A DNA stretch of 64,000 bases. Origin: Halorubrum californiense DSM 19288 (GTDB lineage Archaea; Halobacteriota; Halobacteria; Halobacteriales; Haloferacaceae). The translations under genes and the position numbers were made by a program. A model generated the notes under the pieces. It saw only the letters and a list, made by a program, of their open reading frames with translations, ran no database searches and had not been told where the DNA came from. The DNA is taken from NCBI RefSeq assembly GCF_000336875.1, contig NZ_AOJK01000021.1, forward strand, positions 9,433 to 73,432, given 5' to 3'. Positions 14,032 to 31,852 of this stretch are shown one piece after another; the stretch's first letter is position 1, and every line of letters begins with the position of its first letter.

Positions 14032-14060
14032 TTCTAACTAAGCGGCTTTGTGAAGTACTG

Positions 14061-15474: not shown

Positions 15475-15477
15475 CCG

Positions 15478-15657: not shown

Positions 15658-15751
15658 ATATCGGCCATGACCGGGTGGGTTGTCTCTTTCGCAACCTCCC
15701 CACTCATCAGCAACCCTATTCTTTTGCGTCTCTCATGTGACCACTGATAGG

Positions 15752-16153: not shown

Positions 16154-16235
16154 CCGGCTTTCGGTTGGATTGATTGGTTGGCCCTCAATAGGGCCAACTA
16201 TCCGCTGGTTAAACCTACGAATTGAATCAGGAGAC

Positions 16236-16589: not shown

Positions 16590-16747
16590 GTGATACCACT
16601 AGGAGGGGTGTTCTAATAGAGCATGATGGATAGTTTGCCGATTTCTGACAGCAGAATTCAGCATACTATGGAAAACGTATTTATACTGCTTCCTGATTGA
16701 TTGTCCAAACTCGTCACACAGAGTCTGATATCCCATCTGAGAGTAGT

Positions 16748-16885
16748 ATGGTGTATCTTCATAGCGATCGTTGGATGACTCTTTTCGACAATAGTCTGTG
16801 CGAAGAGTGGATATACAACGATATGATTAGGGAAATTTGTCAGCCCAAGCGACAGCATCCTGTTTTTTATCCTGTGGAACTGTAA
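16748..16885 (+). CDS. Possible short ORF (45 residues)
   Basis: ATG 16748 opens a short frame ending 8 bases before the next gene. A TATA-like GTATTTATAC is found about 70 bases upstream. It is Trp- and Cys-containing without a recognised motif. It could equally be leader RNA of the gene at 16894. The rest of 16590-16893 shows nothing else. Confidence 0.25.
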   Translation: MVYLHSDRWMTLFDNSLCEEWIYNDMIREICQPKRQHPVFYPVEL

Positions 16886-16893
16886 ATCAACTA

Positions 16894-17277
16894 ATGGCAG
16901 GACCCGGACGGATCCCCGGACGCTACAATCTCGTCATCAAGGGCGCGTACGACACCTTCGATCACCGAATGCCAGTAAAGGAATTCATCAATCGGTTGCA
17001 GAATGACGACGTCCCGGACAAGGTCTCTGTAATCGGACTCGAAGAGGCCCTCTCGGACGACGAGCTACGAACCAACCTCAAGAAGGCGATGGATCGACGA
17101 GCAAACGATTTGGAGTACCAGAATCCGACGGTTCAGTTCGTCCTCGAAGGGTCCTTCCATCGCCAAGGGAAAACGTACGACCTCCGGTACGATGATCAAC
17201 TCCATTCCCTACAGGACGTGTTTGGGGCGCAACTCGAACGAGAGGGAGATGGAGACTGGCTCGTTACGCCCTTCTGA
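16894..17277 (+). CDS. Hypothetical protein convergent with mcrC-like gene
   Basis: This protein of about 127 residues starts at ATG 16894 (MAGPGRIPGRYN). It is soluble and charged, with no Cys motif or membrane segment, and is not recognised. The stop is only about 10 bases from the stop of the convergent McrC-like gene. Its GC content is like that of the mcrBC-like genes rather than the AT-rich region before it. It may be an accessory or regulatory part of that restriction module, which is a guess from position. Confidence 0.6.
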   Translation: MAGPGRIPGRYNLVIKGAYDTFDHRMPVKEFINRLQNDDVPDKVSVIGLEEALSDDELRTNLKKAMDRRANDLEYQNPTVQFVLEGSFHRQGKTYDLRYDDQLHSLQDVFGAQLEREGDGDWLVTPF

Positions 17278-17286
17278 GTCTCCCGC

Positions 17287-19047
17287 TTAGAGAAGTTTCA
17301 GTGGTCTTTCCTTCTCGACTTCTCCTGTATCCCGCTTGAGGAAGTAGAGGTCGATCCAATCTTCACGATCTTCCTCGTAGAAGACAGGGAGACAGGTCCA
17401 CGTGTACTCGTTCCGACGTTCACACCGGGCCTCAATCTGGTCTCGTGTCCAATCCCCGTCGTGCTCTAGGTCATACCGGTTACGAACATTGTACGAGTGC
17501 TCGTCGGCGGCTGCCTTGACCACCCGAAGCGAGAAGTCTCGAAGGTCTTGGAACGTGAAGGGCCCATTCATATCGGCAGCCTTGCTGAGGTCGCCCTCGT
17601 CTACGCCATCCAAACACAGTTTTTTCTCCGCGATAGCGTAGAACGGTTCGAGTTCCGGGTGGATCTCTGCGAGAACGCTTTGGAGGGATTCGTGTACGAC
17701 TTCGTCGTATTTGTCAAGCGAGAAGTCGCCCGTTGGAGAAATTATCTCCAACTCTGCGCCAGTCTGCGCGACTCGACGACGTCGCGGTTCGAGCAACGGA
17801 CACAGGAACGCGAGTCTGTCGGCATGGAGGAGATAAGCGTAGCTGAACAGTCGTGACCGTGACGGGGACTCTTTGACCGGGTCGTGCCCCTCCGCGTAGT
17901 ACTTCGAGTCGAGGACGGCGATCGTCTCTTCGCCCTCTTGAAGCGCGTGGTCTGGTTCGTGGTATATCTGATTCTCTCCCTCGAACGGATTGACTGACGG
18001 CGACGACGCGGGCTTGACGTTGGCGACCGAATCGAAATGATCGTACGACTTGATGTAGGAGAGCTCGCGCTCGATCACCACTTGAGAGTACTGCTCGAAC
18101 AGTGACTCCATATTCAGGACGTAGTCTACGACGAGCTCCCGAGGCCCGTCTTTGAGCTGCTGACCGAGCGAGGATGACAATACCGCCTTTGCGACATCGA
18201 ACGCCTTCCGGTAGTACTGGCGTTGTTTCGGCAGGTCACCGAGCGTGATGCGGCGATACTCGTCAATGCGGCCCAGTCCGCTGTCAACACCCATCCCCTC
18301 CAATCGCTCGACTTCTCGATGGACCTCTGAGAAGATGCGATCGTACCCGGGATGATCATACTTTGAGGCGTTTTGGCGAAAAAGCCGGAGCAGCGTTTTT
18401 CCTGCGTAGTGGAGCAGTGAGTTCGCGGCGTTGTCGTACTCCGTTTCGTTTCGGATCCAATTCGGCTCGACAGTCCCGCGGGCGTGATTCAGCAGGGTTT
18501 GTTCGACGTCGATTTCCCCCCGCCCTTCGAGGCTGTTGGTCCGGCGCAGGATCAGGTCCCGGATGTATCCGTTCCGTTGGATGGTCTCAAGTCCCTCCAA
18601 GTAGTTAATCGCCATGACGACAAGCACGTCTTCGAGTTCGATATCGTCGGAGAGGAAGTCTTGAAGCGGAATCCCGTGGTAGTCGATCGACCGGTTCTGA
18701 TCGTACACCGCCAGGAGCATATCGAAAATCGGTTCCCAGTCGATCTTGGGGGAAATCGTTACTTTCGATGACGGAGTCAGGCTGACCGCCCCGATGATAT
18801 CCGTCGCGGAGACGTGGATGACGTCACCGTCGTCGCCCTCTACAGTCACCGTGATGACGTCATACTGTTTGTCAGAGTCGAGAGCCTCCTGATGCTTTGT
18901 GAACACACCCGGACTCTCCTGCGTGAATGACGCGCGACGAAGTTGATCAGTGATGGACGACGGACAGTCTTCAATCCGGATCTCTCCCCGCTCGGGGACG
19001 TCGAACGTATCCCGCCCGTACTGATAGACTTCGTCGACGCTACTCAT
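17287..19047 (-). CDS. McrC-like restriction nuclease subunit
   Basis: This 586-residue protein has the layout of McrC, the nuclease partner of the McrB GTPase in methylation-dependent restriction. An N-terminal beta-rich region precedes a helical middle. A PD-(D/E)xK-like site lies around residues 365-380, where EPD is followed by AVLDSKYY. The start ATG overlaps the McrB-like stop (TAATG), so the two are coupled. Known McrC proteins are often shorter (about 350-450 residues), and this one has an extended C-terminal domain. Substrate specificity cannot be read from the sequence. Confidence 0.85.
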   Translation of the reverse strand: MSSVDEVYQYGRDTFDVPERGEIRIEDCPSSITDQLRRASFTQESPGVFTKHQEALDSDKQYDVITVTVEGDDGDVIHVSATDIIGAVSLTPSSKVTISPKIDWEPIFDMLLAVYDQNRSIDYHGIPLQDFLSDDIELEDVLVVMAINYLEGLETIQRNGYIRDLILRRTNSLEGRGEIDVEQTLLNHARGTVEPNWIRNETEYDNAANSLLHYAGKTLLRLFRQNASKYDHPGYDRIFSEVHREVERLEGMGVDSGLGRIDEYRRITLGDLPKQRQYYRKAFDVAKAVLSSSLGQQLKDGPRELVVDYVLNMESLFEQYSQVVIERELSYIKSYDHFDSVANVKPASSPSVNPFEGENQIYHEPDHALQEGEETIAVLDSKYYAEGHDPVKESPSRSRLFSYAYLLHADRLAFLCPLLEPRRRRVAQTGAELEIISPTGDFSLDKYDEVVHESLQSVLAEIHPELEPFYAIAEKKLCLDGVDEGDLSKAADMNGPFTFQDLRDFSLRVVKAAADEHSYNVRNRYDLEHDGDWTRDQIEARCERRNEYTWTCLPVFYEEDREDWIDLYFLKRDTGEVEKERPLKLL

Positions 19048-20279
19048 TACTCGTAGGAACCCATCTGGCGTCGCTCCTGTTCAAGTTCACGTTCGGCGAG
19101 TTCGGCCGCCGGAGAGAGGTCGAATTCCTCGAACTCGTCATTCATCGCTCGGTAGTGTTCCGCAATTCGCTCCACCTGCGGGAACGCTGCGGAGTTCAAT
19201 AGCCGAGGAACGATGTAGGTGCGGAAGGCCTGTCCGATCGAATCGGTTTGGTCGTATTCGTACTCCCCACCTTCCCGGCAGGCGACACCCACGAACACGG
19301 CGACGTCGCGGTAGTGCATCGGACCGAACCGCATGATCGAACCCTGTGCCGTGGACTCGTTGCCGTGGTTGATCCCTTCGTAGTCCCGCTCAAACAGACG
19401 GAGCAACTCGGCGTCGTCGATGTCAGTCTGTCCCGAAACGTGCGTGTCGAGCCAATCTTTGAACAGTTGGCGTCGCTTGTCTTCCTCGTACTCGTCCAAT
19501 TCGATCATGGCGAACCGACGAGTAATCGCATTGTCGAGTTCGTTCACCGTCCGGTCCGACATGTTCATCGTACAGATGATGTTCACCCGCTCGTCGAGTT
19601 CAATGGTCTCTCCCTCATCAGTCTCGAAAATCGTCTGGTGCGGGTTTTCGATTGCAGTGTAGAGCGGCCCGAATATCTTTGAGATGTCCGCTCGGGTGAT
19701 CTCGTCGAGAATGACTCCGTATTCGACGTCGAATCGGCGAGCTCGCTGAACGCCCTCAGAGACACAGCCGAGCTTGGTCCGGTAGCTAAGCGATTCACCT
19801 GTGTAGTCAGGACTAATTCCGCCGATGATGTCCGAAGGTGTCCACGAGGGCGTCGCGGTGTGAAGTGAGTATCCGATTCCCGTTTCACGAGCCAACTGCT
19901 TCGCAAACGTCGTCTTTCCGGTCCCCGTCGGTCCGTAGAGCACGACGGGCTTTCCGGCTTCGAGGGCGACCTTGGCGTTTCGCACGACATCCTCGGGGAC
20001 GAGGATGTCTTCGGGGGTTTCGTCTCCACGGAGGCTCACGAGACGTTTTAGTCGATCTGATGCGAGACGTGACTCTAGGACTGCCTGCCGGACGTTTCCG
20101 AGACCGCGTTTCCCATCGTGGGCTTTGTCGAGTTCTTGCTCCTCAATAAGGTATAGGAGGACTTCCTCATTCTCAGCGTTCTCGATCGCTTCAACGACAT
20201 CGTCCTCGACACGCCGAAGGATGTTGATCTCTTCCTTAGCCTGCTCAAGTGTGTACGTGTCGTCTGACGAATTACCCAT
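19047..20279 (-). CDS. McrB-like AAA+ GTPase/ATPase
   Basis: The likely start is ATG 20279, giving 410 residues. A charged N-terminal region of about 100 residues precedes the AAA+ motor. Walker A is GPTGTGKT (116-123), Walker B is VILDEITRADI, and the McrB-type sensor region MNMSDRTVNELDNAITRRF is present (canonical McrB has an MNTADRS-like segment). No modified-base-reading domain is obvious in the short N-terminus, so target recognition may lie elsewhere. It overlaps the McrC-like gene. A purine-rich leader and an AT-rich region precede the start. Confidence 0.87.
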   Translation of the reverse strand: MGNSSDDTYTLEQAKEEINILRRVEDDVVEAIENAENEEVLLYLIEEQELDKAHDGKRGLGNVRQAVLESRLASDRLKRLVSLRGDETPEDILVPEDVVRNAKVALEAGKPVVLYGPTGTGKTTFAKQLARETGIGYSLHTATPSWTPSDIIGGISPDYTGESLSYRTKLGCVSEGVQRARRFDVEYGVILDEITRADISKIFGPLYTAIENPHQTIFETDEGETIELDERVNIICTMNMSDRTVNELDNAITRRFAMIELDEYEEDKRRQLFKDWLDTHVSGQTDIDDAELLRLFERDYEGINHGNESTAQGSIMRFGPMHYRDVAVFVGVACREGGEYEYDQTDSIGQAFRTYIVPRLLNSAAFPQVERIAEHYRAMNDEFEEFDLSPAAELAERELEQERRQMGSYE

Positions 20280-20384
20280 TTTCAGATAGGTACAGTCGAG
20301 GGTATATAAAATCCGTCTCAAACAGGTATAGATGATGAACTAGCGTGCGGGCGGTGGTGTAAGTGTACGTTTCGACGTTCTCTA

Positions 20385-20708
20385 CTAGGTTTCGTTGATA
20401 TTCTCTATGAGGTCTGCGAATTCCTCGATTATGTTATCTGGGTCGACAGTGCGCTCTTCACACCAGTTGAGGGCTTCTTCTGTGGTAAGTAACTGAATTT
20501 TTTCACCGTAGGTTGTTCCTTCATTTGCTTGCTTAGCGTACTTTGTGGCAGCGCCGCCTTGGCAGTGGAGGAAATACTCACCATCTGAGTCTTTGTACAG
20601 CGTTTCTGCAAGTGCGTGGAAGTCTTGCTTGTCCACGATTGAGCCGTACTTGCCGATCTGCTCTGCACTGTCTGTGTCGTATACCTTTCGGCTGATTATC
20701 TGTCGCAT
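20385..20708 (-). CDS. Small mobile-element-associated protein
   Basis: This 107-residue protein starts at ATG 20708. It begins MRQIISRKVYDTDSAEQIG, continues with a YKDSDGEYFLHCQGG segment and has a C-terminal acidic helix. This layout (KxYDT then LYK..dGeYFL) is that of a small protein family frequent in phages and integrative elements of bacteria and archaea, whose function is unknown. It follows the McrB-like gene's upstream region on the same strand. Confidence 0.6.
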   Translation of the reverse strand: MRQIISRKVYDTDSAEQIGKYGSIVDKQDFHALAETLYKDSDGEYFLHCQGGAATKYAKQANEGTTYGEKIQLLTTEEALNWCEERTVDPDNIIEEFADLIENINET

Positions 20709-20812
20709 TGCGCATGATGAGAAGAGTCAGTCGTTAAAAAAAGATTAACCCAAGTAGTATGGGTGAGAAACAGCACAAGTAAATATACAAGCCGACAACA
20801 GTGAGTCGGGAT

Positions 20813-21130
20813 ATGGATCCGACACCTGAGGATGCGAATCGGCATGGTCGTGAGGCTGTCACCGCGCTTCGTCAGACGAATGAGGACAGATGGGCAAAGC
20901 TCGCTGAGGAAACTGCGCTAACGGAACGACAAATAGCGATGTGGGAACTTGCTGTTCGCTACGATTTGAAGCAGAGGTACGTTGCATCAGAATACGGGGT
21001 TAAAGAGAGCACAGTATCGAGGCATGTTGAACGCGTTCGAGAAAAAGAAGCGGAATCCGATGAGAAAATCAACGAGCTGAAAAGGGAATTACAGCGATGG
21101 AAAGAGACAAGAAATTATCTTGAAGCCTAA
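20813..21130 (+). CDS. Helix-turn-helix protein with coiled-coil tail
   Basis: This protein has about 105 residues from ATG 20813; GTG 20801 is the other choice. A TATA-like AAATATAC at 20781-20788 places a leaderless start near the ATG. Residues of about 45-75 form a sigma-region-4-like helix-turn-helix (YVASEYGVKESTVSRHVERV), followed by a charged coiled coil. It is likely a small DNA-binding regulator of the element. Confidence 0.65.
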   Translation: MDPTPEDANRHGREAVTALRQTNEDRWAKLAEETALTERQIAMWELAVRYDLKQRYVASEYGVKESTVSRHVERVREKEAESDEKINELKRELQRWKETRNYLEA

Positions 21131-21197
21131 CTCTTACTGACGCTGGGCTGTATCCTCCGACACCTATTCAGTATCAACGGTCAACCTATAATGCGAC

Positions 21198-21213
21198 GGC
21201 TTTGTTGAAATCC
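21198..21213. repeat. Orphan insertion-sequence end
   Basis: GGCTTTGTTGAAATCC matches, in inverted orientation, the end at 26580-26595 and resembles those at 24802, 26726 and 29227. No transposase lies next to it. Confidence 0.55.
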
Positions 21214-21317
21214 TCATCAGTAGATATGTTTACACGCTTAATCGCTCAATACAGGTGAAGCACGTATCATTCAGTACAGGTGCATATTTATGTCGGTATT
21301 GTTCAATTAGACGACCA

Positions 21318-21653
21318 ATGACCGATTGGGAGCGAGTGAGACAAGACCTCAAAGAGGCGGGCTATTTTGGATTCGAGTCCGATAGCGGCGATACGGCCGT
21401 GCCGGGATTGTCCGGTGAGTGGGTATCCGGTAATATCCCACGCGAGGGAGGATTGAAACACGAGAACCAACCACTTTGGATACGGATTCTTGACGCGCTA
21501 CCCGGAGGTGATACTGTGGAAGCCGACCCGGAAAATGCCCCGGAAAGCATACGCAACATCGCCACTGAACACGGGTTGGAAGTCGTGATATTCAGCGTCT
21601 CTGCCGACGAGGTACGCATCGCACTTTGTGACCCCTCAAAACATGATTTGTAG
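21318..21653 (+). CDS. Hypothetical protein
   Basis: This protein has about 111 residues from ATG 21318 (MTDWERVRQ). It is soluble and acidic, with a C-terminal beta-rich part (LEVVIFSVSADEVRIALCD). The family is not recognised. It stands alone, with about 150 bases of unassigned DNA on either side. Confidence 0.5.
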   Translation: MTDWERVRQDLKEAGYFGFESDSGDTAVPGLSGEWVSGNIPREGGLKHENQPLWIRILDALPGGDTVEADPENAPESIRNIATEHGLEVVIFSVSADEVRIALCDPSKHDL

Positions 21654-21830
21654 CGGTGTGTTCGCACTATTTAGCGACTAGCTGTTTCAAGCGAGTATAT
21701 ATCTGAAGAATGTGGTTTCAACAGACCCCTTTGGAACTAATTCTCGCAGATGTATGCGGACACTAGACTATATACAGTTGTACGCGGGCCTCCTAATTTA
21801 AGAGGTTTGATCACTTATAGTCATGTGTAA

Positions 21831-22088
21831 ATGGAAAACTCAACATCTGGCGGCGATGAGGGCGAACTACCACAGATATTCGACGACCCCCGCGGAAAAA
21901 TCGATGTCGCCGGAGACATCGTTGACGGCGCTCTCGAAAAAGCACCAGCGAACGCAATCCCCTCATCAGCGACGAGGTGGGTCGCGCTCGCAGTAGATCG
22001 TGTCGAGCACGGCGACATTGATGACGACGAGTGGAAGCTCGCAGTGGGAGCGACCGAGCGCGCACTCCGCGAGCGCACGGAGAACTAG
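21831..22088 (+). CDS. Small acidic protein upstream of recombinase
   Basis: This 85-residue acidic protein starts at ATG 21831, with a TATA-like ACTTATAG about 20 bases upstream. The stop is 4 bases before the serine recombinase start, so they form an operon. It has no motif and could be a recombinase cofactor, by position only. Confidence 0.5.
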   Translation: MENSTSGGDEGELPQIFDDPRGKIDVAGDIVDGALEKAPANAIPSSATRWVALAVDRVEHGDIDDDEWKLAVGATERALRERTEN

Positions 22089-22092
22089 ACCA

Positions 22093-22827
22093 ATGACAGA
22101 GGAGGCCGTCGCCGCGTATGTCCGTTCGAGCACAGACAAACAAGAGCACGAGCACCAACGCGACGACATTATCAATTGGTGCGAGACCAACGGTGTTCCC
22201 ACCGACTCAATTCAGTGGTATGTGGATCTTGGGCAAAGTGGCAGCGACCCCGGGCGCGAGCAATTCTTAGAGCTCACAGATTCAATCGCCGAATTTAACC
22301 GAGTTGTCACCTGGGAAGTATCCCGACTCTCCCGACTCGGGAGCACGTATCAGCGATTCTTTGAGGAGGCATCTGACGCCGACACGATCGTACACGTGGC
22401 CAATGGGTGGACAGACACTATTCGACCCGATGGGACGGGCAAGCTAATCGCAGATATCTCCGCAGCTGTCGCAGAGGAACAGCGGAGGAAGCTCATCAGT
22501 CGTGTGAACTCTGGGGTTCGGAGGGCGAGAAAGGAAGGAAAGTGGTTGGGCGAGACACCATCCGGTTTTACTCGAAACGACCAAGGATATCTCCGACCGA
22601 TAATCAATCCGAACCCCGACGAGGATGGGTACCTCGAAATCCGCAAAGCGCTCGAAGACATCGAGGATGGTGCGAGTTATAACGAAACTGCGGCTGGCCT
22701 CACCACAACTAGACAAACCCTGTCGAGAATCCACCAAGACGAGGAACGAAGATTGTGGTATCTTGAGGGGGAGGCGAGTAACGACGATCGTGTGAGTGAA
22801 GCGCTCGCTGACATCAGTACGCAATGA
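22093..22827 (+). CDS. Serine recombinase (resolvase family)
   Basis: This 244-residue recombinase has the N-terminal resolvase catalytic domain. Its AAYVRSSTDKQ segment contains the conserved Tyr, Arg and nucleophilic Ser (S13), and EVSRLSRLG supplies the second Arg cluster. A long helix follows (AAVAEEQRRKLISRVNSGVRRA), and a C-terminal helix-turn-helix region (YNETAAGLTTTRQTLSRI) would bind DNA. The length suits a resolvase or small integrase rather than a large serine integrase. It cleaves and rejoins DNA through a 5' phosphoserine link. The neighbouring truncated membrane gene and 18-bp palindrome make this a candidate recombination site. Confidence 0.88.
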   Translation: MTEEAVAAYVRSSTDKQEHEHQRDDIINWCETNGVPTDSIQWYVDLGQSGSDPGREQFLELTDSIAEFNRVVTWEVSRLSRLGSTYQRFFEEASDADTIVHVANGWTDTIRPDGTGKLIADISAAVAEEQRRKLISRVNSGVRRARKEGKWLGETPSGFTRNDQGYLRPIINPNPDEDGYLEIRKALEDIEDGASYNETAAGLTTTRQTLSRIHQDEERRLWYLEGEASNDDRVSEALADISTQ

Positions 22828-22830
22828 CGG

Positions 22831-22953
22831 CTAAAGGGTGGTCAACACACCGATGAGTCCGACGGCGACCATAGCAAGCCCGACTGAGAGTATTAACGCC
22901 TGCCGAGGGCCAACCGCATCGCGGAGCATGCCCGTCCCTACGAGAGGACGCGA
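22831..22953 (-). pseudogene. Remnant: C-terminus of a membrane transporter-like gene
   Basis: About 40 codons end at TAG 22831-22833 and encode a hydrophobic tail (LVGTGMLRDAVGPR then a 20-residue helix). The frame loses sense above about 22955 and has no start, so only the 3' end remains. It abuts the serine recombinase gene, converging on it. It may mark the scar of an integration or deletion. The family is uncertain; a major-facilitator-like or similar permease is possible. Confidence 0.45.
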
Positions 22954-22994
22954 CAAAAACAATGCTGTGTGTTGAGGATTTCCACAGGAATTTC

Positions 22995-23012
22995 CCCTCA
23001 AAATTTTGAGGG
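22995..23012. promoter_or_regulatory. 18-bp perfect palindrome
   Basis: CCCTCAAAATTTTGAGGG is a perfect palindrome 21 bases before the ATG at 23034 and about 170 bases after the recombinase gene. It could be an operator, a hairpin or a recombinase crossover site. Confidence 0.5.
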
Positions 23013-23033
23013 TGTGGTTCGAACTAGTAACCA

Positions 23034-23297
23034 ATGAACGAGAGCAACGACGATCGTGACGATGAAGCGCTTGAGCTGGCCTCGGGGGGCGAGGGTGCGC
23101 CGACGCCGACGGACTCAAAAGAGTCGTTGTTCGGCGACCGAGAATCCAACAAGACCCCGTCCGACCTCCGAGGGGAGCTAGCGGATGACAGCGACGAGGA
23201 TGAGGAGCCGTTGCCAGCGAGATGCTCCTGCGAGAGCGAGAGCGTGACTGACCGAGGGATCATTCTATTTGTGATCACTCATTTTGCTAAGTTTTAA
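23034..23297 (+). CDS. Hypothetical acidic protein
   Basis: This 87-residue frame has a very acidic, Ser/Asp-rich, probably disordered N-terminal 60 residues and a short hydrophobic C-terminus (GIILFVITHF). No family is recognised. The gene end looks atypical, so a frameshift or a truncated gene is possible. Confidence 0.35.
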   Translation: MNESNDDRDDEALELASGGEGAPTPTDSKESLFGDRESNKTPSDLRGELADDSDEDEEPLPARCSCESESVTDRGIILFVITHFAKF

Positions 23298-23325
23298 TAG
23301 GAAAGATCATACGTCGACAAGTGAA

Positions 23326-23715
23326 ATGTCGAACCCAAACGACGACGAAGAAGACCCGAGTGGCTTCAAAGAGGATGCGCGAGCCCTGAAGAATTCGCAG
23401 ATCAAATCCATCAGGTTAGGGAATCGACTCTCAGCATCGATTATATCGATCCATGTCGTACGCGGCAATCACCGGCGGGAGACGGCAGCAAGTGTCGAGC
23501 TCCGCAATCTTGTAGAACACGACATGGGCGAGGACGTGTACGATGCCGAGGAGGAGAAGATCGACTATCAAGCACTCTCATCGGAGCTCCGAGAGCGAGT
23601 AGACGCACTAATCGAGCACTCAGTGAGACCTACCGAATACAAAGAGATGACCGAGGACGGCGTCGACACGGGGGAGAACGATGTTGAAATCGAACGGCAA
23701 CACAATCGTGACTGA
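23326..23715 (+). CDS. Hypothetical acidic protein
   Basis: This protein has about 129 residues from ATG 23326. It has an acidic start, then a basic/beta-looking segment (QIKSIRLGNRLSASIISIHVV) and a helical acidic C-terminus. It is not recognised and shows haloarchaeal-like codon use. Confidence 0.5.
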   Translation: MSNPNDDEEDPSGFKEDARALKNSQIKSIRLGNRLSASIISIHVVRGNHRRETAASVELRNLVEHDMGEDVYDAEEEKIDYQALSSELRERVDALIEHSVRPTEYKEMTEDGVDTGENDVEIERQHNRD

Positions 23716-23796
23716 CTGAGAGGGAGACAACAACCTCGTGGTTGCGTAGGCTATCCTGATTGGCGATATTGACTGAGGTATTCCGAACGCGGCAGC

Positions 23797-23952
23797 CTAC
23801 TCTGAAATTTGAAAGCGCTCTATCTCACCTGACCTACACTTAGGACACTCATCTGCGCCCGGCGCAAGATTCTCACCGCACTGGCGGCACTCCACAACTA
23901 CCTCTGTCTCATCACTGGGCAGGAGCCGAGTAAGTACTGTGCGGACACCCAT
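23797..23952 (-). CDS. Small zinc-ribbon protein (51 residues)
   Basis: ATG 23952 opens a 51-residue frame with two Cys pairs (CRQCG and CPKC) 15 residues apart, the signature of the small CPxCG-type zinc-ribbon proteins that are abundant in haloarchaea. An N-terminal helix (MGVRTVLTRLL) precedes an acidic stretch. Such proteins are thought to be regulatory or RNA- or protein-binding, mostly without known function. Confidence 0.7.
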   Translation of the reverse strand: MGVRTVLTRLLPSDETEVVVECRQCGENLAPGADECPKCRSGEIERFQISE

Positions 23953-24110
23953 GGGGTCGAATGTTTTGATGGCCGTGAGTTAATGCTATTGGTGGTCTAC
24001 ATCTACCGAAAATAAGGCGTATCCGACCCGCAATGCCGCCAAAGGCTTACGTTCAAGGCCGATTGAGATTCGGTTGGAAGGAACACTGTCACACGCTCCT
24101 TCCCCCCTCT

Positions 24111-24263
24111 ATGAACGCCGACGAATCGTCACTCGGCCGCTGTCCGGAATGTGGCGGGAAGATCTCGGAAGCGTGGGTTCTTCTTGAGTACCAAAAGAAC
24201 GACGGTACCGAGGGCGTGTGGACTGAGTGCCCGACATGTGGGGACGTTGTAGCCCCGGAGTAG
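24111..24263 (+). CDS. Small zinc-binding protein (DUF7837-like)
   Basis: From ATG 24111 this is a 50-residue protein with LGRCPECGGKI and ECPTCGDVVAPE, two CxxC knuckles around a short beta hairpin. The layout matches a haloarchaeal family of about 50 residues with a terminal VxPE. Upstream in-frame codons from 24033 look non-coding. It forms, with the opposite-strand zinc ribbon and the TRAM protein, a group of small nucleic-acid-type proteins. Confidence 0.65.
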   Translation: MNADESSLGRCPECGGKISEAWVLLEYQKNDGTEGVWTECPTCGDVVAPE

Positions 24264-24318
24264 TCGCAGACAGCAGAGTAAAGTGCGCTACGTCGCGTCT
24301 ACAGTGTACGGTATTCAA

Positions 24319-24732
24319 ATGAAGATTTCAGAGGAACTTCGGTGTCTGTTCTCGGGGAAGGTCGAAGAGCGTGATGGGTCATATGTAGTAGAGGTACCAG
24401 AGCAAGAACTCCGCCTTGGTGAGCTACAGGCGGACGAGACGTACCGTGTGGCTGTTCTGCCAACACCTGCGACCAACGAGGTAAATATCACTGACGCTAC
24501 CACCGAGCCGGAGCAAGCGCCACAGACGCCCCCTGTCGAAGAGGGTGAACAACGTACCGTCGAAATCGAAGATATTGGCGACCAAGGTGACGGTATCACG
24601 CGTGTTGAGCGCGGCTTCGTCGTTATTGTTCCCGACACCAAACAGACTGAGCGTGTCACTATCGAGATTACAGATGTGCGCGAGAATGTCGCCTTCGCCG
24701 AAGTTGTCGAGCGCGTCAGTTACTACGAGTAG
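24319..24732 (+). CDS. TRAM-domain protein
   Basis: This protein has about 137 residues from ATG 24319. The C-terminal 60 residues form a TRAM domain (EIEDIGDQGDGITRVERGFVVIVPD then VTIEITDV), a small beta-barrel that binds RNA and is proposed to act as a cold-shock-like chaperone in archaea. The N-terminal half resembles other haloarchaeal TRAM proteins and is joined by an acidic Pro-rich linker. It stands 55 bases after the zinc-binding protein. Confidence 0.82.
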   Translation: MKISEELRCLFSGKVEERDGSYVVEVPEQELRLGELQADETYRVAVLPTPATNEVNITDATTEPEQAPQTPPVEEGEQRTVEIEDIGDQGDGITRVERGFVVIVPDTKQTERVTIEITDVRENVAFAEVVERVSYYE

Positions 24733-25060
24733 TCTGAGTCGCTAATCCTTTTTGTCTTCTCTGGGTAGTGTTGTAGCCGAATCTGTCGGACAGGAATAGG
24801 TGGCTTTGTTGACTCTGTTGAGATCCCATTCTTCAGATATATTCTCACCTGAAACAGCCGGTCGATGAGAACTGCTTACACACCACGCATTCTCAAGCTC
24901 GTGGTTACGGAAGATCGGGGCAATAATCGATTCTATAAACCGGGTGTCTCTGCTGCCAGCGAGGTAAACTAACGGCCCCCATCCCGGATAGCTACAGCTA
25001 CACTTTCACCACGCTTCGCGTAATTATACAAACCTCCGATAAGAACCATCAGAGAACAGA
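24733..25060. other. Non-coding stretch with orphan IS end and promoter
   Basis: No gene is supported. An insertion-sequence-end-like sequence starts at 24802 (GGCTTTGTTGACTCTGTTGA). A TATA-like AATTATACAA at 25023-25032 lies about 30 bases before the cyclase start and is its probable promoter. Confidence 0.5.
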
Positions 25061-25813
25061 ATGCCGAATTTTCCGGACTCTCATCAAGAGGAAATCATCG
25101 AACGAATTGGGGAGAGAGCAGAGACCGTCGAAGAACGACTTGAAGATATCTCCCGGGGGCGAACTAACCCCTCGTTAGACGACCTCACAATCCATTCTGC
25201 GAAGAAATATCGTCTCGGGATTGTTTTTGTCGATATCAACGACTTCAGCAACTACATGAGTAGAAATGACGACGAAGACACGCTGTTTATGCTGAACGTA
25301 TTCATTCCCGAAATTATGGAACTGGTCCGTGATTTTGATGGGAAACTTGAGAAGAACACAGGGGACGGCATTCTCGCGTATTTCGGTGCAGGTGAAGATG
25401 ATGGAGATGCGGTCGAAACACTGTTAGAGTACATCGCTACCGTAAAATGGGCGTTGAAGTACCATGTTAATCCGGAACTAGAGGACAACGACGTTGAGAC
25501 GATATCGATCAGCACCGGGTCAGCGTACGATACAGTCTACATCTCACGCATCGGTGCTCACAGCGGCAACCAGCGGATGAACCGGTTAACAGCAGTTTCA
25601 ACTGGTGCGAATATCGCGTCAGAGCTTGAAGCGATGGCAGAAACAAACCAGCATTACGTGAACGATGGCATCTATGAGTATTCAGACGACGAGAACGGGT
25701 GGGGACAATACGTGAAACATGTTGGTAAGCACAACGGGTATACCTGGGGCAGTCCGCTGAAAGGACAAGACACCGCTCAGTACTACAAATTCACCGGGGT
25801 TTGGCAGGAGTAA
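25061..25813 (+). CDS. Class III nucleotide cyclase, Pycsar-like (PycC candidate)
   Basis: This 250-residue single-domain cyclase has both metal-binding Asp segments of class III adenylate/guanylate/pyrimidylate cyclases: VFVDINDFSNYM (D58) and EKNTGDGILAYFG (D102). An N-terminal helical region of about 45 residues precedes the domain. There is no membrane anchor. The next gene, 4 bases downstream, encodes a PycTM/DUF5706-like membrane protein, the known effector partner of pyrimidine cyclases in Pycsar anti-phage systems. The pair suggests that phage-triggered synthesis of cCMP or cUMP opens or oligomerises the effector. Which base it uses cannot be read safely from the sequence. A chromosomal signalling cyclase is the alternative, but gene pairing argues against it. 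Confidence 0.85.
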   Translation: MPNFPDSHQEEIIERIGERAETVEERLEDISRGRTNPSLDDLTIHSAKKYRLGIVFVDINDFSNYMSRNDDEDTLFMLNVFIPEIMELVRDFDGKLEKNTGDGILAYFGAGEDDGDAVETLLEYIATVKWALKYHVNPELEDNDVETISISTGSAYDTVYISRIGAHSGNQRMNRLTAVSTGANIASELEAMAETNQHYVNDGIYEYSDDENGWGQYVKHVGKHNGYTWGSPLKGQDTAQYYKFTGVWQE

Positions 25814-25816
25814 CCT

Positions 25817-26305
25817 ATGTCGTCACCGCCCACTGACTTTTCGACGCAAACACTCTCCCATCTGAACGAATACATCAAATTTGCTGATCAGAAGGCGTCT
25901 GTCCTCCTAACGGGACAATTAGCATTTCTCGGCCTGTTCGTAAACCTCCTTAACAAAAACTGGGTTGGGGCCAGTATCGAGTTCAAGATCCTCGCAGCGG
26001 TGACGATCGGGGCTACCTTACTCGCAGGGGTTTCCGCAGGCTGGGGGATCTACCCGCAGACAGAGCCTTCTGGCGAGGCATTGCTATTTTGGGAAAACAT
26101 CAACGCGAAGTCTCTCAATGATTATGAGTCTGAGATCAAGGATTTGGACGAGGATGCAGTGTTGTGGGAGTTGATCGAGGAGAATCACTTGTTAGCGGAA
26201 GTCGCATCTAACAAATATTGGCGTTTAAAGGTTTCCTTAGTTTCGACGGCGGGGACTGTGTTCTTCGCTACATTATCTACGGTTTCTATGTTCTGGCTTG
26301 GGTGA
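25817..26305 (+). CDS. PycTM/DUF5706-like membrane effector
   Basis: This 162-residue protein shows the Pycsar effector membrane-domain pattern. An N-terminal helix carries YIKFADQKAS (residues 19-28), followed at once by membrane helix 1 (about 29-46) and helix 2 (about 57-79). A soluble helical middle comes next and a third membrane helix forms the C-terminus (about 139-160). In bacterial Pycsar this family is activated by a cyclic pyrimidine mononucleotide and damages the inner membrane, killing or arresting the infected cell. The start codon is 4 bases after the cyclase stop, so both come from one transcript. Toxic activity in an archaeon is inferred from the bacterial family. Confidence 0.85.
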   Translation: MSSPPTDFSTQTLSHLNEYIKFADQKASVLLTGQLAFLGLFVNLLNKNWVGASIEFKILAAVTIGATLLAGVSAGWGIYPQTEPSGEALLFWENINAKSLNDYESEIKDLDEDAVLWELIEENHLLAEVASNKYWRLKVSLVSTAGTVFFATLSTVSMFWLG

Positions 26306-26569
26306 GTGAACCCCTGTACAGTTTCGCCGTTTGACCCGAATTTGTCAACGCCGCGCGGCCAGTAGGACCAACTTCTCTCATCGCCCATTTGCCGAACCCA
26401 CCCTCTGTATCTCGCACGTCGCTCCTACTCAGTAACCAACAGGACTTCGACCAAGGTGTTACTTTGCTCCTCTGTATTCGACAAGTCGCTACTGTCCCAA
26501 TACAGTTAGATCGCGGCTCCCTCTATTATTCCTATACCCTGTATCGACCGCAGTAGGGTCAGAATGTAT
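26306..26569. other. Non-coding stretch after the Pycsar-like pair
   Basis: No gene is supported in either strand. It leads directly into insertion-sequence remnants at 26570-26741. Confidence 0.4.
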
Positions 26570-26741
26570 CACTTACTAAGGATTTCAACAAAGCCAGAAT
26601 TTCGAAGAGTATCGAGAGACTGCTCGGCGTGCCAGATGGATCGCCTTCTCGGTAAAACGCAGAATCTGCGACTTCGGGAGGGTTTTCATCTCATAGAATT
26701 ACAGGACGAACATGTAACTCTCTGAGGATTTCAACAGAGCC
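26570..26741 (-). mobile_element. Nested insertion-sequence remnants
   Basis: Read on the minus strand, an end starting GGCTCTGTTGAAATCC (26741 downwards) leads into a truncated transposase start at ATG 26689. That start encodes MKTLPKSQILRFTEKAIHLA, then ARRAVSRYSSKF, as in IS5-type haloarchaeal transposases. The frame stops when a second, similar end (GGCTTTGTTGAAATCC, 26595-26580) interrupts it. Both elements lack the rest of their sequence, so neither can move by itself. Confidence 0.7.
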
Positions 26742-26749
26742 GCTTTGTT

Positions 26750-27136
26750 TTACTCGTTGCCCGTCTCCGTCTCACAGACCGATTCGAAGTGGCGAATGAG
26801 TTGCGCCAGCCCCGAAGTGGTGTCTCCTCTGTCCACATGCTTGCTTCTCTCGTGATACGTAACCGCGCCGCTCTCTTCGAGCGTCTCTAAGTGTAGCTGG
26901 GTCAGCGCGATGTACACGTTCTTCCGCTCTTCCGAGCTCACTTCGGGGATCTCCTTGTTCGCCTCGATGGCCGCAATCGCCTCGGCCAGCTCTCCCACAT
27001 TCATCTTCTCATCCCGATCCTCGATGAGCGTGATGATGTGTCTTCGGCGGCTGTTTGTGATAACCGATACGGCGTCTTCGACGGTCAGTCGAACAGAGTT
27101 ATCCCTGCTCCACAGTGTAGGTTGTATTGCTGTCAT
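26750..27136 (-). CDS. DUF7344-like haloarchaeal HTH protein
   Basis: This 128-residue protein starts at ATG 27136. The central part (ITNSRRRHIITLI, NVGELAEAIAAIE, ERKNVYIALTQLHLETLEESGAVTYHE) matches the winged-helix layout common to a large family of small haloarchaeal regulators, many next to mobile DNA. The target is unknown. A 9-bp inverted repeat about 150 bases upstream could be an operator. Confidence 0.75.
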   Translation of the reverse strand: MTAIQPTLWSRDNSVRLTVEDAVSVITNSRRRHIITLIEDRDEKMNVGELAEAIAAIEANKEIPEVSSEERKNVYIALTQLHLETLEESGAVTYHERSKHVDRGDTTSGLAQLIRHFESVCETETGNE

Positions 27137-27289
27137 AGCTGGTGGCAGCGTGGTTCCGGCGCTCTATCGCCGGGGCCGTTGTAAGACCAGTTCGGAATGA
27201 TCCTCTGGTTAAAAGAGTACTTGGATAGTCACTCGACAGCCCGATTTTTGCGGCGGCTGGTTCGAAGCGACTGGGGCGATTGATTCTCT

Positions 27290-27317
27290 TAACCAACATT
27301 CTGAGCAGTGTTGGTTA
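27290..27317. promoter_or_regulatory. Inverted repeat, possible operator
   Basis: TAACCAACA (27290-27298) and TGTTGGTTA (27309-27317) form a perfect 9-bp repeat with a 10-base spacer between divergent genes. Centre-to-centre spacing is about two helical turns, suited to a dimeric repressor. Confidence 0.4.
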
Positions 27318-27386
27318 GACTCGACGTCTGACGGGGCGTCGGCACTTTACACAGGTATTTTATACTGAACCCAGTTGGCCGAGGCA

Positions 27387-27662
27387 ATGAGTTCGATAGA
27401 CACGTCCGGAGCGCGCTTCCACGGCCTCAGAGACGATGAGGTGAAGATCTTGTACCTGGTCGCCAGGTGGTTCAACTCCAAGCCCTACCACATCGGGGAG
27501 CAGAAACTCCACATCTCTCAGGACCAGGAGCTCCCGCTGCGGGATATGTTCGATGGGTGGAACAGCCGCGAGTACAGCGACTACGAAGATGCGCACGCTC
27601 GCGTTCTTGCCAGAGACCTCGTCGATGAGGCTGTTGCTGTACTCGTCAAAGAACTACTGTAA
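27387..27662 (+). pseudogene. Truncated paralog of the protein at 27995
   Basis: From ATG 27387 this encodes about 91 residues. Residues of about 15-75 align clearly with the N-terminus of the 302-residue protein: both have ILY-V-RWFN-KP, then I--Q/H--LPL--(M/L)F, then AH-R-L. After LVDEAV the similarity ends and the frame stops, so the C-terminal 200 residues are missing. It is either a decayed duplicate or an independent short domain protein. Confidence 0.6.
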
Positions 27663-27724
27663 CGGTATCTCTCAGTGTCACTATTCAGATACTGGTCAGG
27701 TGAACTAGCCGTGGAGGAATATTA

Positions 27725-27850
27725 CTAGCCTCTGAATTCTACGGTATAGCCGTTGTTGAGAAGTGCTTCGACAAGGTCATCATCAGGCTCGATTTTGAAT
27801 TCGTGGGACGATTTTATTATGACTGACGCTGATCCCTCACAGTCGTCGTT
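27725..27850 (-). pseudogene. Possible gene remnant
   Basis: A minus-strand frame of about 40 codons ends at TAG 27725 and reads like a protein tail (SSHEFKIEPDDDLVEALLNN). No start codon is visible before a stop upstream, so it is either a truncated gene or chance. Confidence 0.25.
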
Positions 27851-27879
27851 AGGTTAATGAAACTAGACAGGGTCACGGC

Positions 27880-27994
27880 CACAATATATTAAATATCGAT
27901 CAATATTTATCTGAAATATTCAAAATAGCCTAATTTAAGCATCATAATCTGATCGTTCCTGAGTTTTATACGTCACTACAGGTTTAGATATATC
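27880..27994. promoter_or_regulatory. AT-rich region with short inverted repeats and promoter
   Basis: This stretch is far richer in A and T than its surroundings. It contains AATATTTatctgAAATATT and a further AATAT repeat. GTTTTATACG near 27963-27972 lies about 25-30 bases before ATG 27995 and is a likely TATA box. The rest could be an operator or a DNA-unwinding element. Confidence 0.4.
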
Positions 27995-28903
27995 ATGTCG
28001 AAAAAAGTACCGTCACAGGCCCAGTTTTGGGAAATTCAAGAGAATGGTCTACGCCTTCTCTATATTGTTACACGCTGGTTCAACGGAAAACCAATGAATA
28101 TCCGTGGAGAGAAACGACGCATCGCTACACACCATGATCTTCCACTTAATGAACTCTTTCGAGGCACTGATTTGGGTTATGAGCAACACAGTCGAGCTCA
28201 CGAGCGCCTACTAAACAACGGGCTTCTTCAGGAAGAGTACGTGTGTCGTCGTAAGATCGATTGGGGGTTGACCCAGCGAGGTCGTCAAGCAATCCGTGAT
28301 GTCCTAAAACCGTCGGCAGATAATCTGCGACCCGAGTGGGCGGATGAAGACGACGAGGGACCACTGTTTGGTGATCCAAACGAGGGTGTCACTCACCGGA
28401 AGGGCGTCGAAATTGCTGGCTATATGCTCCCCAAGATGGCGTGGGCATGGAGTATGGAGAGACACGGTCGTCCATATGGCGTTGAATGGTATCCTACCGA
28501 TAGCCGCGGCGAGTCCTGCCATGATCTCCATATCGATACAAATGAGCATATGACCGATGTCGGTGTCGAAGTTATCACTGACAGCAACAATAAGGACCGC
28601 CTAGTGGCGAAGTGGAAACGCCTCCAAAATGAAGACCGCACTACCTTCTGGGTCTTCGACAGACGCGAGACTGCATGTCGACTTTGGAACGAACTCGACC
28701 GCCGCGGTATATCTTATCTCGACGGGCAGTTCAATAACCATTGTAATTGGAGTGCGGGAGCGATTAACCGCAAAGTCTGGCGGTCGTCAGACAAATATCG
28801 ACAGGAACCTGCAGGCGACATCATACAAACTGTTACTGGTCTCTTGGAGGGCGACAAGGACACCGTTCAGGATCTATTCGAAGAATACTACTCAAGAAAA
28901 TGA
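27995..28903 (+). CDS. Hypothetical protein with N-terminal winged-helix-like domain
   Basis: This 302-residue protein starts at ATG 27995 behind a TATA-like box. The N-terminal 100 residues look like a winged helix (ERLLNNGLLQEEY...LTQRGRQAI) and are shared with the truncated paralog at 27387. The C-terminal half (GVEVITDSNNKDRLVAKWKR then TFWVFDRRETACRLWNEL) has the strand-helix layout of a small alpha/beta nuclease or of replication-relaxation proteins of plasmids. Key catalytic residues cannot be assigned. It is the last gene before the island boundary. Confidence 0.6.
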   Translation: MSKKVPSQAQFWEIQENGLRLLYIVTRWFNGKPMNIRGEKRRIATHHDLPLNELFRGTDLGYEQHSRAHERLLNNGLLQEEYVCRRKIDWGLTQRGRQAIRDVLKPSADNLRPEWADEDDEGPLFGDPNEGVTHRKGVEIAGYMLPKMAWAWSMERHGRPYGVEWYPTDSRGESCHDLHIDTNEHMTDVGVEVITDSNNKDRLVAKWKRLQNEDRTTFWVFDRRETACRLWNELDRRGISYLDGQFNNHCNWSAGAINRKVWRSSDKYRQEPAGDIIQTVTGLLEGDKDTVQDLFEEYYSRK

Positions 28904-29499
28904 TATAGGTGTAAGATCGGTTTTTGGCGGGTGAATCCCGCACCACCCATGGGGGGGACAACAATATGGAACTTTACGCAGAATTTGGATAGTTTAAGAC
29001 CGCCGTTTTAAGCTCTGTATTGGCTCTGTAAGAGCGTAAAACAGAAACACACACCCTGCGTAGAGATTAAGTGCTAATTTTCATCCCCCCTTTACGCAGG
29101 TACGTGTAATAATCCAATAATGTTCTACCTGCAATATGTTCGTACCATGAATCAGTCCCCCAGACACACAATCTGTGTGTCTTGCTGGCACCTTTCAAGA
29201 ATTGTCTCTCGATTCCGGTCAATCTAGCTCTATTGAAATCCTCTTTTTCGGCTCTGCGTGGTAGGCAAGGACACAATGGTCATGGTGAGAGTACGGGTGA
29301 CGGGTTGCCAGCACGACCGTGCTACTATACAGTGTTGACAAAGCCACAGGAACTTACAACCGGTACCGGTTCGGGAGCTGCTCGATTACTCTTTTGCTGA
29401 TGTGCGGGGGGTTGTTAGTTCAGTCGCCGGTAGGCTATCCCATCCGGGGGATCAGGAGGGTTAACTTACTCCTGTTTTGGAACGATAACCTAATAATTG
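28904..29499. other. Non-coding, repeat-rich end of the island
   Basis: No convincing gene is present. Elements seen are: a direct repeat CTTTACGCAG at 28972-28981 and 29090-29099; an inverted copy forming CCTGCGTA/TACGCAGG (29055-29062 and 29093-29100); a 9-bp stem with 3-base loop, AGACACACA/TGTGTGTCT (29162-29182); an IS-end-like GCTCTATTGAAATCC (29227); and a 14-bp palindrome AACCGGTACCGGTT (29358-29371). These fit remnants of mobile DNA. Confidence 0.5.
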
Positions 29500-29500
29500 C

Positions 29501-29710
29501 AGTCTCAACTGGAACCCGAGCGCGGAGACCACCAACCGCGAGGTGTTGTTGGCGATCGAGAACGAGTCGGTCGCGGACTTCTACGCCCGCGCGTACGCCG
29601 CCGACTGGCGCGGTGGCGGCGTCCAGCTTCCGATCGCCTTCCTCGGCGGGTTCGGCGTCGCGCTCGCGGTGGCCGGCGCCGTCGCTCGGCGGGAGATCGC
29701 GTTCGGCTGA
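29501..29710 (+). pseudogene. 3' end of a phospholipase-D-like gene cut by the island
   Basis: About 69 codons in GC-rich core usage read SLNWNPSAETTNREV and continue through DFYARAYAADW to a C-terminal membrane helix and stop. This matches the end of haloarchaeal phospholipase-D-type proteins, where a GSxNW motif is followed by REV and a terminal anchor. Sense is lost directly before 29500, where AT-rich island DNA begins, so the 5' part is missing from this side. The break falls at the catalytic GSxNW codons. The rest of the gene may lie beyond the left window edge. Confidence 0.7.
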
Positions 29711-29741
29711 AAAGCGGTTCCGTTGTGCGGGCTTCGACCTC

Positions 29742-31712
29742 TCAGTCGTCGAGCGCGATCGTCGACGAGAGCGCCTCGTCGATCTCGGCGCTCGCCATCT
29801 TCTCGACGAGCGCCTCGATCACCTCGCTCCGGCGCCCTTTCACGAACTTGATGGAGCCGACGACGAGGTGGCCGCCGCCGGAGACGCCGGCCTCGGGCAG
29901 CTCCTCGTTCAGCTCGGTCACCATGTTCGGGATGTCGAGGCGAACCCCGTCCGAGCGGAGGACGCAGAAGTCCGGGCCGTAGCCGATGGTGATGACGGGG
30001 TCGCCGGTCTCTTTCACCTTCGCGTCGTGGAGTTCGCCGGTGGTCTTGCCCGGCGCGGGGTAGGTGAACCGGTGGGCGTACTCGTCGAGGTCGATCCGGT
30101 AGAGGTGTGCGCCGGAGGCGAGCCGCTCGTGGTCGACGTGGTCCTCGACGGCGTCGAGCTGGCGCTCCACGTCGCGCTCGGCGCGCTCGGAGAGGAACTC
30201 GACGAGCTCCTCGTGGCGGGCCTCGTCGTCGCAACCGACGTTGAGCGCGTCGTTGACCAGCGTCTTGCCCTCGGAGTAGCGAAGCCAGTGGGCGGCGTAG
30301 TCGAGCGCCTCGCCGATGTCGAGGAGATCGGACTCGTCGTAGCCCGCGCCCTCGGCGAGCGCGACGTAGTCGTCCATCGCCTCGGCCTTCGAGCGGTCGG
30401 AGAGGCCGGCCACCGCCGGCACGTGTTCGAGTTCCTCGGTGAGCGAGGGGTCGACGAGCCGGGCGAGTTCGACGCACATCATCCCCGTGGTGACCCGGTA
30501 GTCCTCGCCGTGGAGGTAGGGGTTCACGTGGGCGTCGAGCAGCGGCTCGACCGCCTCGGGGTCGGGGTGGTGGTGGTCGACGGCCGCGATGGGGATGTCG
30601 TAGTGCGCGAGGTTCTCGTAGGCCGGCACGTCCTCCTCGGTTGACCCGTTGTCCAACATGAGGAGGAAGGGGAGCTTCTGCCCGTGGCGGGCGCGGCCCT
30701 CCAAGGCGAAGTTGAGGTCGCGGGTGACGTCCTCCATCTCGTAGTAGGGCGCCTTGCTCGGGAGCCGCTTGAGGAGGTGCCGCGGCGAGTCGGGGTCGCC
30801 GTGGACCTCCTCGATCAGGTTCTCGACCGCGAGCTGGACCGGAATCGCGGCGCACATCCCGTCGCCGTCGGCGTGGTGCCGGACGCGGATCGGGCGGCCG
30901 GAGAAGACCGTCCGGCGGAGCAGCCGCGCGAGTTCGCGGAGGTCCTCGTGGATCGGCTCGAACGCCTCCCACTCGACGAGGGGGTCGACGTCGGCTGGCT
31001 CGGCGCGCTCGTCGAGGGCCGCCTCGAATCGCTCGCGGGCCTCGGCGGCGCGTTCGTCGGGGAGCCGCTCCAGCGAGTCGACCTCCAGTTGGAGCGCGCC
31101 CTCGCGGCTCTCTATCGTCCCGGAGACGTGGACCATGTCGCCGACCTCGACCTCGGGGTACGCCCGGACGCCGGCGGACTCGAAGGCCGCACAGGAGAGG
31201 ACCCCGGAGGCGTCGGCGACGGCGAAGATGGTGGGGCCGCCCGTCTGTTTCGCTTGGACGACCTCGCCCTCGACGGTCACCTCGTCGCCGGGGGCGAGCC
31301 CGCGGACCCGCGAGACAGTCGGTTCGTGGGCGACGGTCTCGGTCCGGTAGTCGTCGGGGTCGACGTCGTCGAACGCGACGTCGCCGTTCTCCTTCACCTC
31401 GGTGAGTCGGACGATCAGCCGGTCGCCGACGGCGTAGTCGCCGTCGAGGTTCGACTCGTGGACGAGCCCGCTCACGGCGTCGGAGAGGTCGACGAACACG
31501 CCGTAGTCGACGACGCCGTTGACCTCCGCGTGGTACAGTTCGTCGACCGCGGCGTCTTCGAGGGTACAGTCCGGTGCCAGATCGTAGACGGTCGGGCGGT
31601 CGTCGGTCGCGCGCGCCGATCGGTCGTCGACCGTCCCCTCCGCCGCGTCGGCGTCGGGTTCGGGGCTCGAATCGCCCCGCGTGCCGGAATCCCCGGCGGT
31701 GTTTTCGCTCAT
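29742..31712 (-). CDS. DHH-family phosphoesterase with S1 and OB domains (RecJ-like)
   Basis: This protein has about 656 residues from ATG 31712, just after a disordered acidic N-terminus begins. An S1-type RNA-binding domain ([22 protein letters not shown]) and an OB-fold ([21 protein letters not shown]) precede the DHH phosphoesterase core ([26 protein letters not shown]) and a DHHA1 domain with GGGHLVVGS. These enzymes are archaeal relatives of RecJ/GAN that hydrolyse nucleic acids or dinucleotides and associate with the replisome. The Ser/Asp-rich N-terminus is typical of haloarchaea. Substrate preference is not readable. Confidence 0.88.
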
Positions 31713-31852
31713 GGACACGTCTCGGGAACGGCCGGTGTTAAGCCTGTTCTCTCGGGGCTCACGGCACCGGACGCCGCGCTTCACCCACCGAGCGTCCGCC
31801 GCGCGTCCCGCGGTCCGGAACCCCTATGAGGCGACGGCGACTTATCTCGCTC

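Follow-up and report, generated by a model that had tools for sequence, protein, structure and literature searches.

A 64,000-nt stretch of DNA from Halorubrum californiense DSM 19288 (hereafter, the window) contains the end of a gene for a phospholipase-D-like (PLD-family) protein at a sharp change of base composition, which raises the question of how this gene came to be cut and where its other part lies. Here we report that the cut marks the right-hand boundary of one integrated element of ~42.5 kb that is bounded by the two ends of the PLD gene, and that this element was inserted site-specifically, by a tyrosine recombinase, into a conserved chromosomal gene; we put the probability of this reading at about 96%. 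Archaeal tyrosine recombinases are described as targeting mainly tRNA genes, and several protein-coding targets are listed for which recombination was not tested, in the relevant sections of PMC8371274. Haloarchaeal tailed proviruses are likewise placed mostly in tRNA genes in the corresponding part of PMC8651126.

The 3' half of a split PLD-family gene

The truncated frame occupies positions 29501..29710 on the plus strand and reads SLNWNPSAETTNRE...REIAFG-stop, that is, 69 codons from SLNWN to the stop, which comprise the end of the second PLD domain and a C-terminal hydrophobic segment (the latter judged by eye). This agrees with a preliminary description of the window, in which the gene was recognised as phospholipase-D-like, with no more than its last 69 codons present, and a composition boundary was located at its SLNWN codons. 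The junction codons are AGT CTC AAC TGG (29501-29512), and the GC content shifts near 29.5 kb from ~50% on the left to ~70% on the right. The first core gene to the right of the element encodes a DHH/OB-fold protein (29742..31784, minus strand), which sequence comparison also finds in the other split loci described below.

Full-length PLD-family frames were found at eight loci of relatives, seven in Halorubrum records and the eighth in a Halobacteriales MAG; over the best segment, their C-terminus is 68-89% identical to the window frame. In the genome itself (3.68 Mb assembly), searches detected the 3' half just once. As the reference for residue numbers we used P0004, the intact orthologue from Halorubrum sp. 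GN11_10-6_MGM, where a profile search detected PLDc_2 in two stretches (E=3.8e-34) and the PLDc active-site motif (E=1e-6). These profile matches assign the product of the target gene to the PLD (HKD) superfamily, with two predicted PLD domains having the HxK...D...GSxN motif, and the host protein is probably secreted and membrane-anchored.

The 5' half and an adjacent integrase gene

Using as query a 508-residue piece of the Halorubrum xinjiangense PLD protein that lies upstream of the site, we found the 5' half at C20:40444-41850 (80% identity over residues 28-508 of the query). The preliminary description had expected the other half beyond the left edge of the window; the 5' half does exist and is broken at the same residues, but it is located on a separate contig, C20, and the left edge of the window's own contig (C21) is therefore not the end of the element. 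The C20 frame ends VVGSLN-stop, reading ...GGCAGCCTCAACTG followed by AAACGCC, where the window side has GCAGTCTCAACTGGAACCC. No PLD sequence is missing between the halves, the 5' one stopping at SLN and the 3' one beginning with SLNW, and they are 85% and 87% identical to P0004.

A tyrosine integrase gene (L023:11908-13458 on contig C20), encoding 516 residues with a Phage_integrase domain (PF00589, E=5.1e-14), starts 44 bp past the stop of the broken PLD frame. Residues R175, H280, R283, W307, and Y317, which we take to be the catalytic residues of a tyrosine integrase, are invariant among the integrases of the five elements compared below. The best matches in a phage collection are ThalV2 and Geoglobus acetivorans pleomorphic virus 1 (28-30% identity), and the phage and plasmid collections together contain integrase relatives at 24-30% identity only. 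A search of viral contigs, with this one integrase as the query and thus only close relatives within reach, gave no match. A tRNA gene was considered as the target and rejected, as no tRNA was found in the window or in L023.

Extent and contiguity of the element

The whole element consists of C20:41862-45387, a short contig gap, and C21:1-38938, with window base 1 corresponding to C21:9433; its right-hand part thus covers positions 1..29506 of the window, as judged from the junctions, the flank alignment, and a split JAB-domain gene. For comparisons, the two pieces were taken as 3,524 nt and 38,929 nt. Contig C20 ends inside the JAB-domain gene 3.5 kb past the junction, and C21 starts in the N-terminal part of the gene on the same strand; because this gene is split between the two separate contigs, we consider them adjacent. 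Searched separately against the plasmid collection, the two JAB pieces each match one record, the same Halobellus ramosii plasmid, where they align to neighboring parts of a single Mov34/MPN/PAD-1 gene, 87 nt apart. With four unmatched residues taken into account, the gap between C20 and C21 amounts to ~75 nt, as estimated from this one Halobellus ramosii homologue.

The position of the PLD halves on different contigs would also be compatible with an assembly artefact or a chromosomal rearrangement, in which unrelated contigs end in gene halves by chance and no mobile element is involved. The junctions, however, do not coincide with contig ends, since the right one lies 38.9 kb inside C21 and the left one 3.5 kb inside C20, and two further lines of evidence against such an artefact are given in the following sections.

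Repeated use of the site by one integrase clade

The four closest integrases found are encoded in the genomes G449 (81% identity), G381 (83%), G364 (48%), and G043 (47%), and in each of them the integrase gene adjoins a PLD half-gene whose break falls at P0004 residues 485-493. The five occupied sites are spread over three families of halophilic archaea; neither the presence of an integrase gene at the opposite end nor the occupation of the same site in archaea of other families was foreseen in the preliminary description. Both PLD halves are found on a single contig in G449 and G364, where the elements measure 87,663 nt and 21,025 nt, and this recurrence of the same split beside a related integrase in four other genomes, twice within one contig, argues against an artefact of assembly. 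The neighbor located 3' of the PLD 3' half is of the DHH type in all four other loci (63-69% identical to that of the window).

In a tree of 21 integrases (one row, G100, comprising only 76 residues), the five site-sharing proteins form one clade with support 100/99, and the other 16, at 29-38% identity, fall outside it. No PLD sequence was found around these 16 integrases in the surrounding loci (nine of 15-16 kb, two of 16 kb, and five of ~4 kb). At E<=1e-40, the integrase was detected in 11 of 170 genomes of the family and in 14 of 392 genomes of the order, the present genome being included in both counts; the 392 genomes were taken from a larger group, with a maximum of three candidates scored per genome. 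A class-wide search (391 genomes, E<=1e-70) gave no further case. The search with the PLD protein covered the family and the order was covered by the integrase search, which is blind there to unrelated integrases; further occupied sites may exist.

The present integrase (family f1) is nearest to those of G449 and G381 (family f4) and not to that of G043 (f1), a relationship that speaks for horizontal spread. In G043 (L065:4787-7642, minus strand), the PLD frame continues without a stop into the integrase gene, forming a 1003-codon open frame, so that a fusion protein or read-through from PLD into the integrase is possible. In G364 the integrase is located at the opposite end of the element, beside the PLD 3' half, and read-through from the host gene is thus no general rule.

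Attachment site and inverted arms

The present element is flanked by GCAGCCTCAACTG on the left and GCAGTCTCAACTG on the right. The left copy of this attachment repeat was located by junction reading at L023:11850-11862 (contig C20), and the right copy is at 29499..29511 on the plus strand, this being its single mismatch-free occurrence in the window (0.01 occurrences expected with one mismatch allowed). The junction repeat, GCAG[C/T]CTCAACTG, has one mismatch in 13 positions, with 8 nt in a row identical. The repeat anticipated at the other end in the preliminary description, GCAGTCTCAACTGG, is indeed present there, but in the form GCAGCCTCAACTGA, identical at 12/14 positions. The stretches identical between left and right ends are CTCAACTG in the present element, AGCCTCAACTGGAAC in G449 and G381, TCAACTGGAA in G043, and TGAACTGGAA in G364, and comparison of the ends identified AACTG (29507..29511, plus strand, in the window) as part of the core at both ends of all five elements. 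We infer that the crossover takes place at AACTG.

Inside all five elements there is an inverted repeat of the type AGGTTGnTGTTCCA, centered on the core, its arms being separated from AACTG by 12 nt on the one side and 14 nt on the other. In the present element, the right arm is TTGGAACGATAACCTA (29477..29492, plus strand; 10/16 match), and its partner is found on C20, past the junction and ahead of the integrase gene. With one common offset, the inverted repeat gives 60/80 matches over the five elements, compared with a mean of 31 and never more than 38 among 500 shuffled sets for each of which the best offset was taken, a comparison in which the five elements are not independent because three of them have closely related integrases. 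The repeat is imperfect in every element (10 to 14 of 16); taken singly, the arms of G449, G043, and G364 stand out, and those of the present genome (G000) and G381 do not, shuffles being as good in 108/300 and 102/300 cases, respectively. Such a position around the core would be expected of integrase binding sites, and the inverted arms are candidates for this role. As ends marked by a direct repeat and inverted arms are not what a chance meeting of gene halves would leave, we regard the artefact or rearrangement reading as very improbable, and retain integration of a mobile element.

Empty site and conservation of the target

Comparison with unoccupied strains supported the proposal of the preliminary description that the integration took place into a conserved gene. 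The 5' half is present in the genome, and in eight of eight relatives the alignments of the two flanks, made up of one or more blocks, meet at the junction, with no match there to the element ends (3.5 kb and 9.5 kb) at E<=1e-10. The two observations named in that description as speaking against integration, absence of a 5' half and the same short frame in relatives, were thus both contradicted.

Among the 52 genomes of the genus, the PLD gene is present in 51 and uninterrupted through the site in 49; the other three are the present genome (split), G144 (contig end before the site), and G117 (no match), and one of the 49, G125, has a PLD gene frameshifted away from the site. The GSLNWN codons rank 29th of 492 six-codon windows in conservation among 30 distinct PLD orthologues (obtained from 37 given loci, almost all within the genus), and 30/30 of them contain the core AACTGGAA. 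At the family level, a PLD match was found in 168/170 genomes, and genomes that lacked a match or had two were searched again (24, three of them from other families, plus 3). Gene decay, by which the 3' piece would be a pseudogene remnant next to a horizontally acquired AT-rich region without any clean insertion, has a precedent in the frameshifted or degraded PLD genes of the family (G101, G052, G125, and G093), but is hardly tenable given the complementary 5' half, the lack of any loss of PLD sequence, and the identity of both halves to P0004.

Several other loci of this gene deserve description. The genome G168 appeared as a split case, with an apparent end at residue 491, and was rejected: the next PLD piece is only 13 bp away on the same strand, and it therefore contains no element. 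In G049, a contig break coincides with the site; contig C149 ends with ...TCTCAACTGGAA and C94 begins with TCTCAACTGGAA (end of L093 and start of L105), and no integrase was detected in this genome at E<=1e-40. For both reasons G049 was left out of the count; the shared contig ends may reflect a mixed population of occupied and empty sites. The G093 gene (L111, G093:C51:26500-32000) contains no element and has a frameshift exactly at the site, where VLVAVSTGT replaces the GSLNW reading, which could be explained by a scar left on excision or by an error in sequencing. Finally, G164 (L112, G164:C1:298000-316000) has an insertion of ~15 kb elsewhere in the same PLD gene, at P0004 residues 255-269, i.e., at the first HxK motif, the other catalytic motif; its flanks are CACCATCCG and CACCACCCG, and no match to the present integrase was found in it.

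Cargo of the elements

In its right-hand part, the present element encodes an MCM-type helicase, presumed to be its replication gene (469..2532, plus strand; PF00493, E=2e-76; phrog_10371, E=4.8e-211), followed by genes assigned by profile matches: an SNF2 helicase of DrmD/BrxH/HmaA-like type (3770..5521, minus strand; best match DrmD, 2e-82; HmaA, 1.2e-61), a DUF499/HmaC-like ATPase (6563..9769, plus strand; E=1.5e-14), and a DUF1156/HmaB-like DNA methylase (9766..12444, plus strand; E=3.3e-36). The region 2620-12444 contains, together with this Hma-like group, a protein weakly matching LmuB and an HNH nuclease that has an HNH_repeat, and possibly constitutes a variant defence system. Further on, there are a McrBC-like pair (17287..20321, minus strand), which includes a McrC-like protein (17287-19047) and an AAA_5 protein that is McrB-like by position (19047-20321), and two adjacent genes (25061..26305, plus strand) matching the PycC cyclase (25061-25813, E=5.2e-17) and the PycTM effector (25817-26305, E=2.4e-28). 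By these matches, the latter two are assigned as a Pycsar pair in an archaeal mobile element; archaea, haloarchaea, and Pycsar come together in one of the papers searched, which by its title concerns a Nitrosarchaeum isolate. A serine resolvase is also encoded in the element. The 388-residue frame at 12847-14013 (minus strand) is transposase-like by eye and has no Pfam match; it may represent an insertion sequence lying inside the element. Neither a spike gene nor any other virion gene was recognised with Pfam and PADLOC among the selected proteins of the present element that were scanned, and the PHROGs comparison comprised the integrase and the MCM protein.

The cargo of the other elements was compared by scanning selected proteins of each, the sequence read being 41.4 kb plus 10.8 kb on two contigs for G381 and 6.3 plus 15.7 kb to the contig ends for G043. 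This revealed BrxL, PglZ, and PglX (BREX) in G449; DpdA, DpdJ, and QueC (Dpd) in G381; a type IIG enzyme and an Mrr-like nuclease in G364; and, in G043, a spike gene of pleolipovirus type that shares 38% identity with HRPV-1 VP4. The integrase is the only gene of the present element that matches all four others (blastp, E<=1e-8). The other matches are one to G381, on the strand opposite to the integrase gene; two that overlap and concern a frame in G043 labeled transposase-like by eye; and three to G449 at 27-29% identity, for which the proteins of the present element are two repeat-containing secreted-looking ones and the AAA protein of its McrBC-like pair. A transposon- or casposon-type insertion with target-site duplication, in place of a tyrosine recombinase, would likewise fit a short direct repeat with inverted repeats near both ends, and the G164 insertion without a related integrase indicates that other insertions into the PLD gene do occur, but such an origin is scarcely credible for elements that share one exact site in five genomes, have their inverted repeats set inward of the core by 12-14 nt instead of at the termini, and showed no transposase or Cas1 common to all in the protein comparison.

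Relation to known integration systems

Integration into protein-coding genes is already known; for instance, the HMG-CoA reductase gene is the reported target of Halorubrum virus BJ1 and others (section on such targets in PMC8371274). Like the present element, the archaeal elements in protein-coding genes described there have a short att repeat, from 8 bp upwards. Thaumarchaeal elements, as presented in the relevant part of PMC6563490, hit their protein-coding targets in 3'-distal regions, whereas here a catalytic motif is cut and the C-terminal segment is separated. The PLD target goes unnamed in the portions of PMC6563490 and PMC8371274 on which we draw; in our data it is common to three families and has an arm repeat around the core. 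Two features are in common with SNJ2-type or pleolipovirus integrases: the best phage matches to our integrase are those of pleomorphic viruses, and the G043 element has a spike gene. SNJ2, however, has a tRNA gene 3' end as its target (same portions of PMC8371274).

The islands of Halorubrum ezzemoulense, as described in the corresponding part of PMC11078007, resemble the present case in their low GC content, single locus, integrase as the only common gene, and defence-related genes; in contrast to it, that pair of islands is placed with fabG on one side and a different core gene on the other. The main text of that paper does not contain the word "phospholipase", and no report of the PLD gene as an archaeal integration site was found among the titles and abstract openings listed by our searches, in a collection with few subscription papers. 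The site described here is a precise non-tRNA integration site with a core, arms, and an integrase clade, common to three families of halophilic archaea, and it points to one entry place of varied antiviral cargo (BREX, Dpd, McrBC-like, Hma-like, and Pycsar) into haloarchaeal chromosomes. The review raises as an open question, in the part cited, whether protein-coding targets have dyad symmetry as other tyrosine-recombinase substrates do (PMC8371274); as we found symmetry on the element side of the site, this question can be addressed with defined substrates.

Proposed mechanism and effect on the host gene

According to the proposed mechanism, the integrase would recognise the core around AACTG in the host gene together with the inverted arms (AGGTTGnTnTnCCA type) on the element side, and the crossover would fall within the S-L-N-W codons of the second PLD active-site motif. 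The element would still be able to excise; neither an excised circle nor an empty copy of the site was observed for the present strain. Of the second motif, the truncated 5' product retains H, K, D, and GS-N, and it has lost the following stretch and the C-terminal hydrophobic segment; the split PLD product is predicted to be inactive or mislocalised, with membrane anchoring lost. It is doubtful that the PLD active-site codons are a dedicated haloarchaeal docking site for defence elements where integration acts as a functional switch. Such a switch would release or inactivate the anchored PLD product and put the integrase under transcription of the host gene, and excision would bring back both; given the location of the G364 integrase at the other end, its transcriptional part fails for some elements. 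A second copy of the attachment repeat with one mismatch, GCAGTTTCAACTG, was observed at 25592-25604 inside the Pycsar cyclase gene (0.01 expected by chance).
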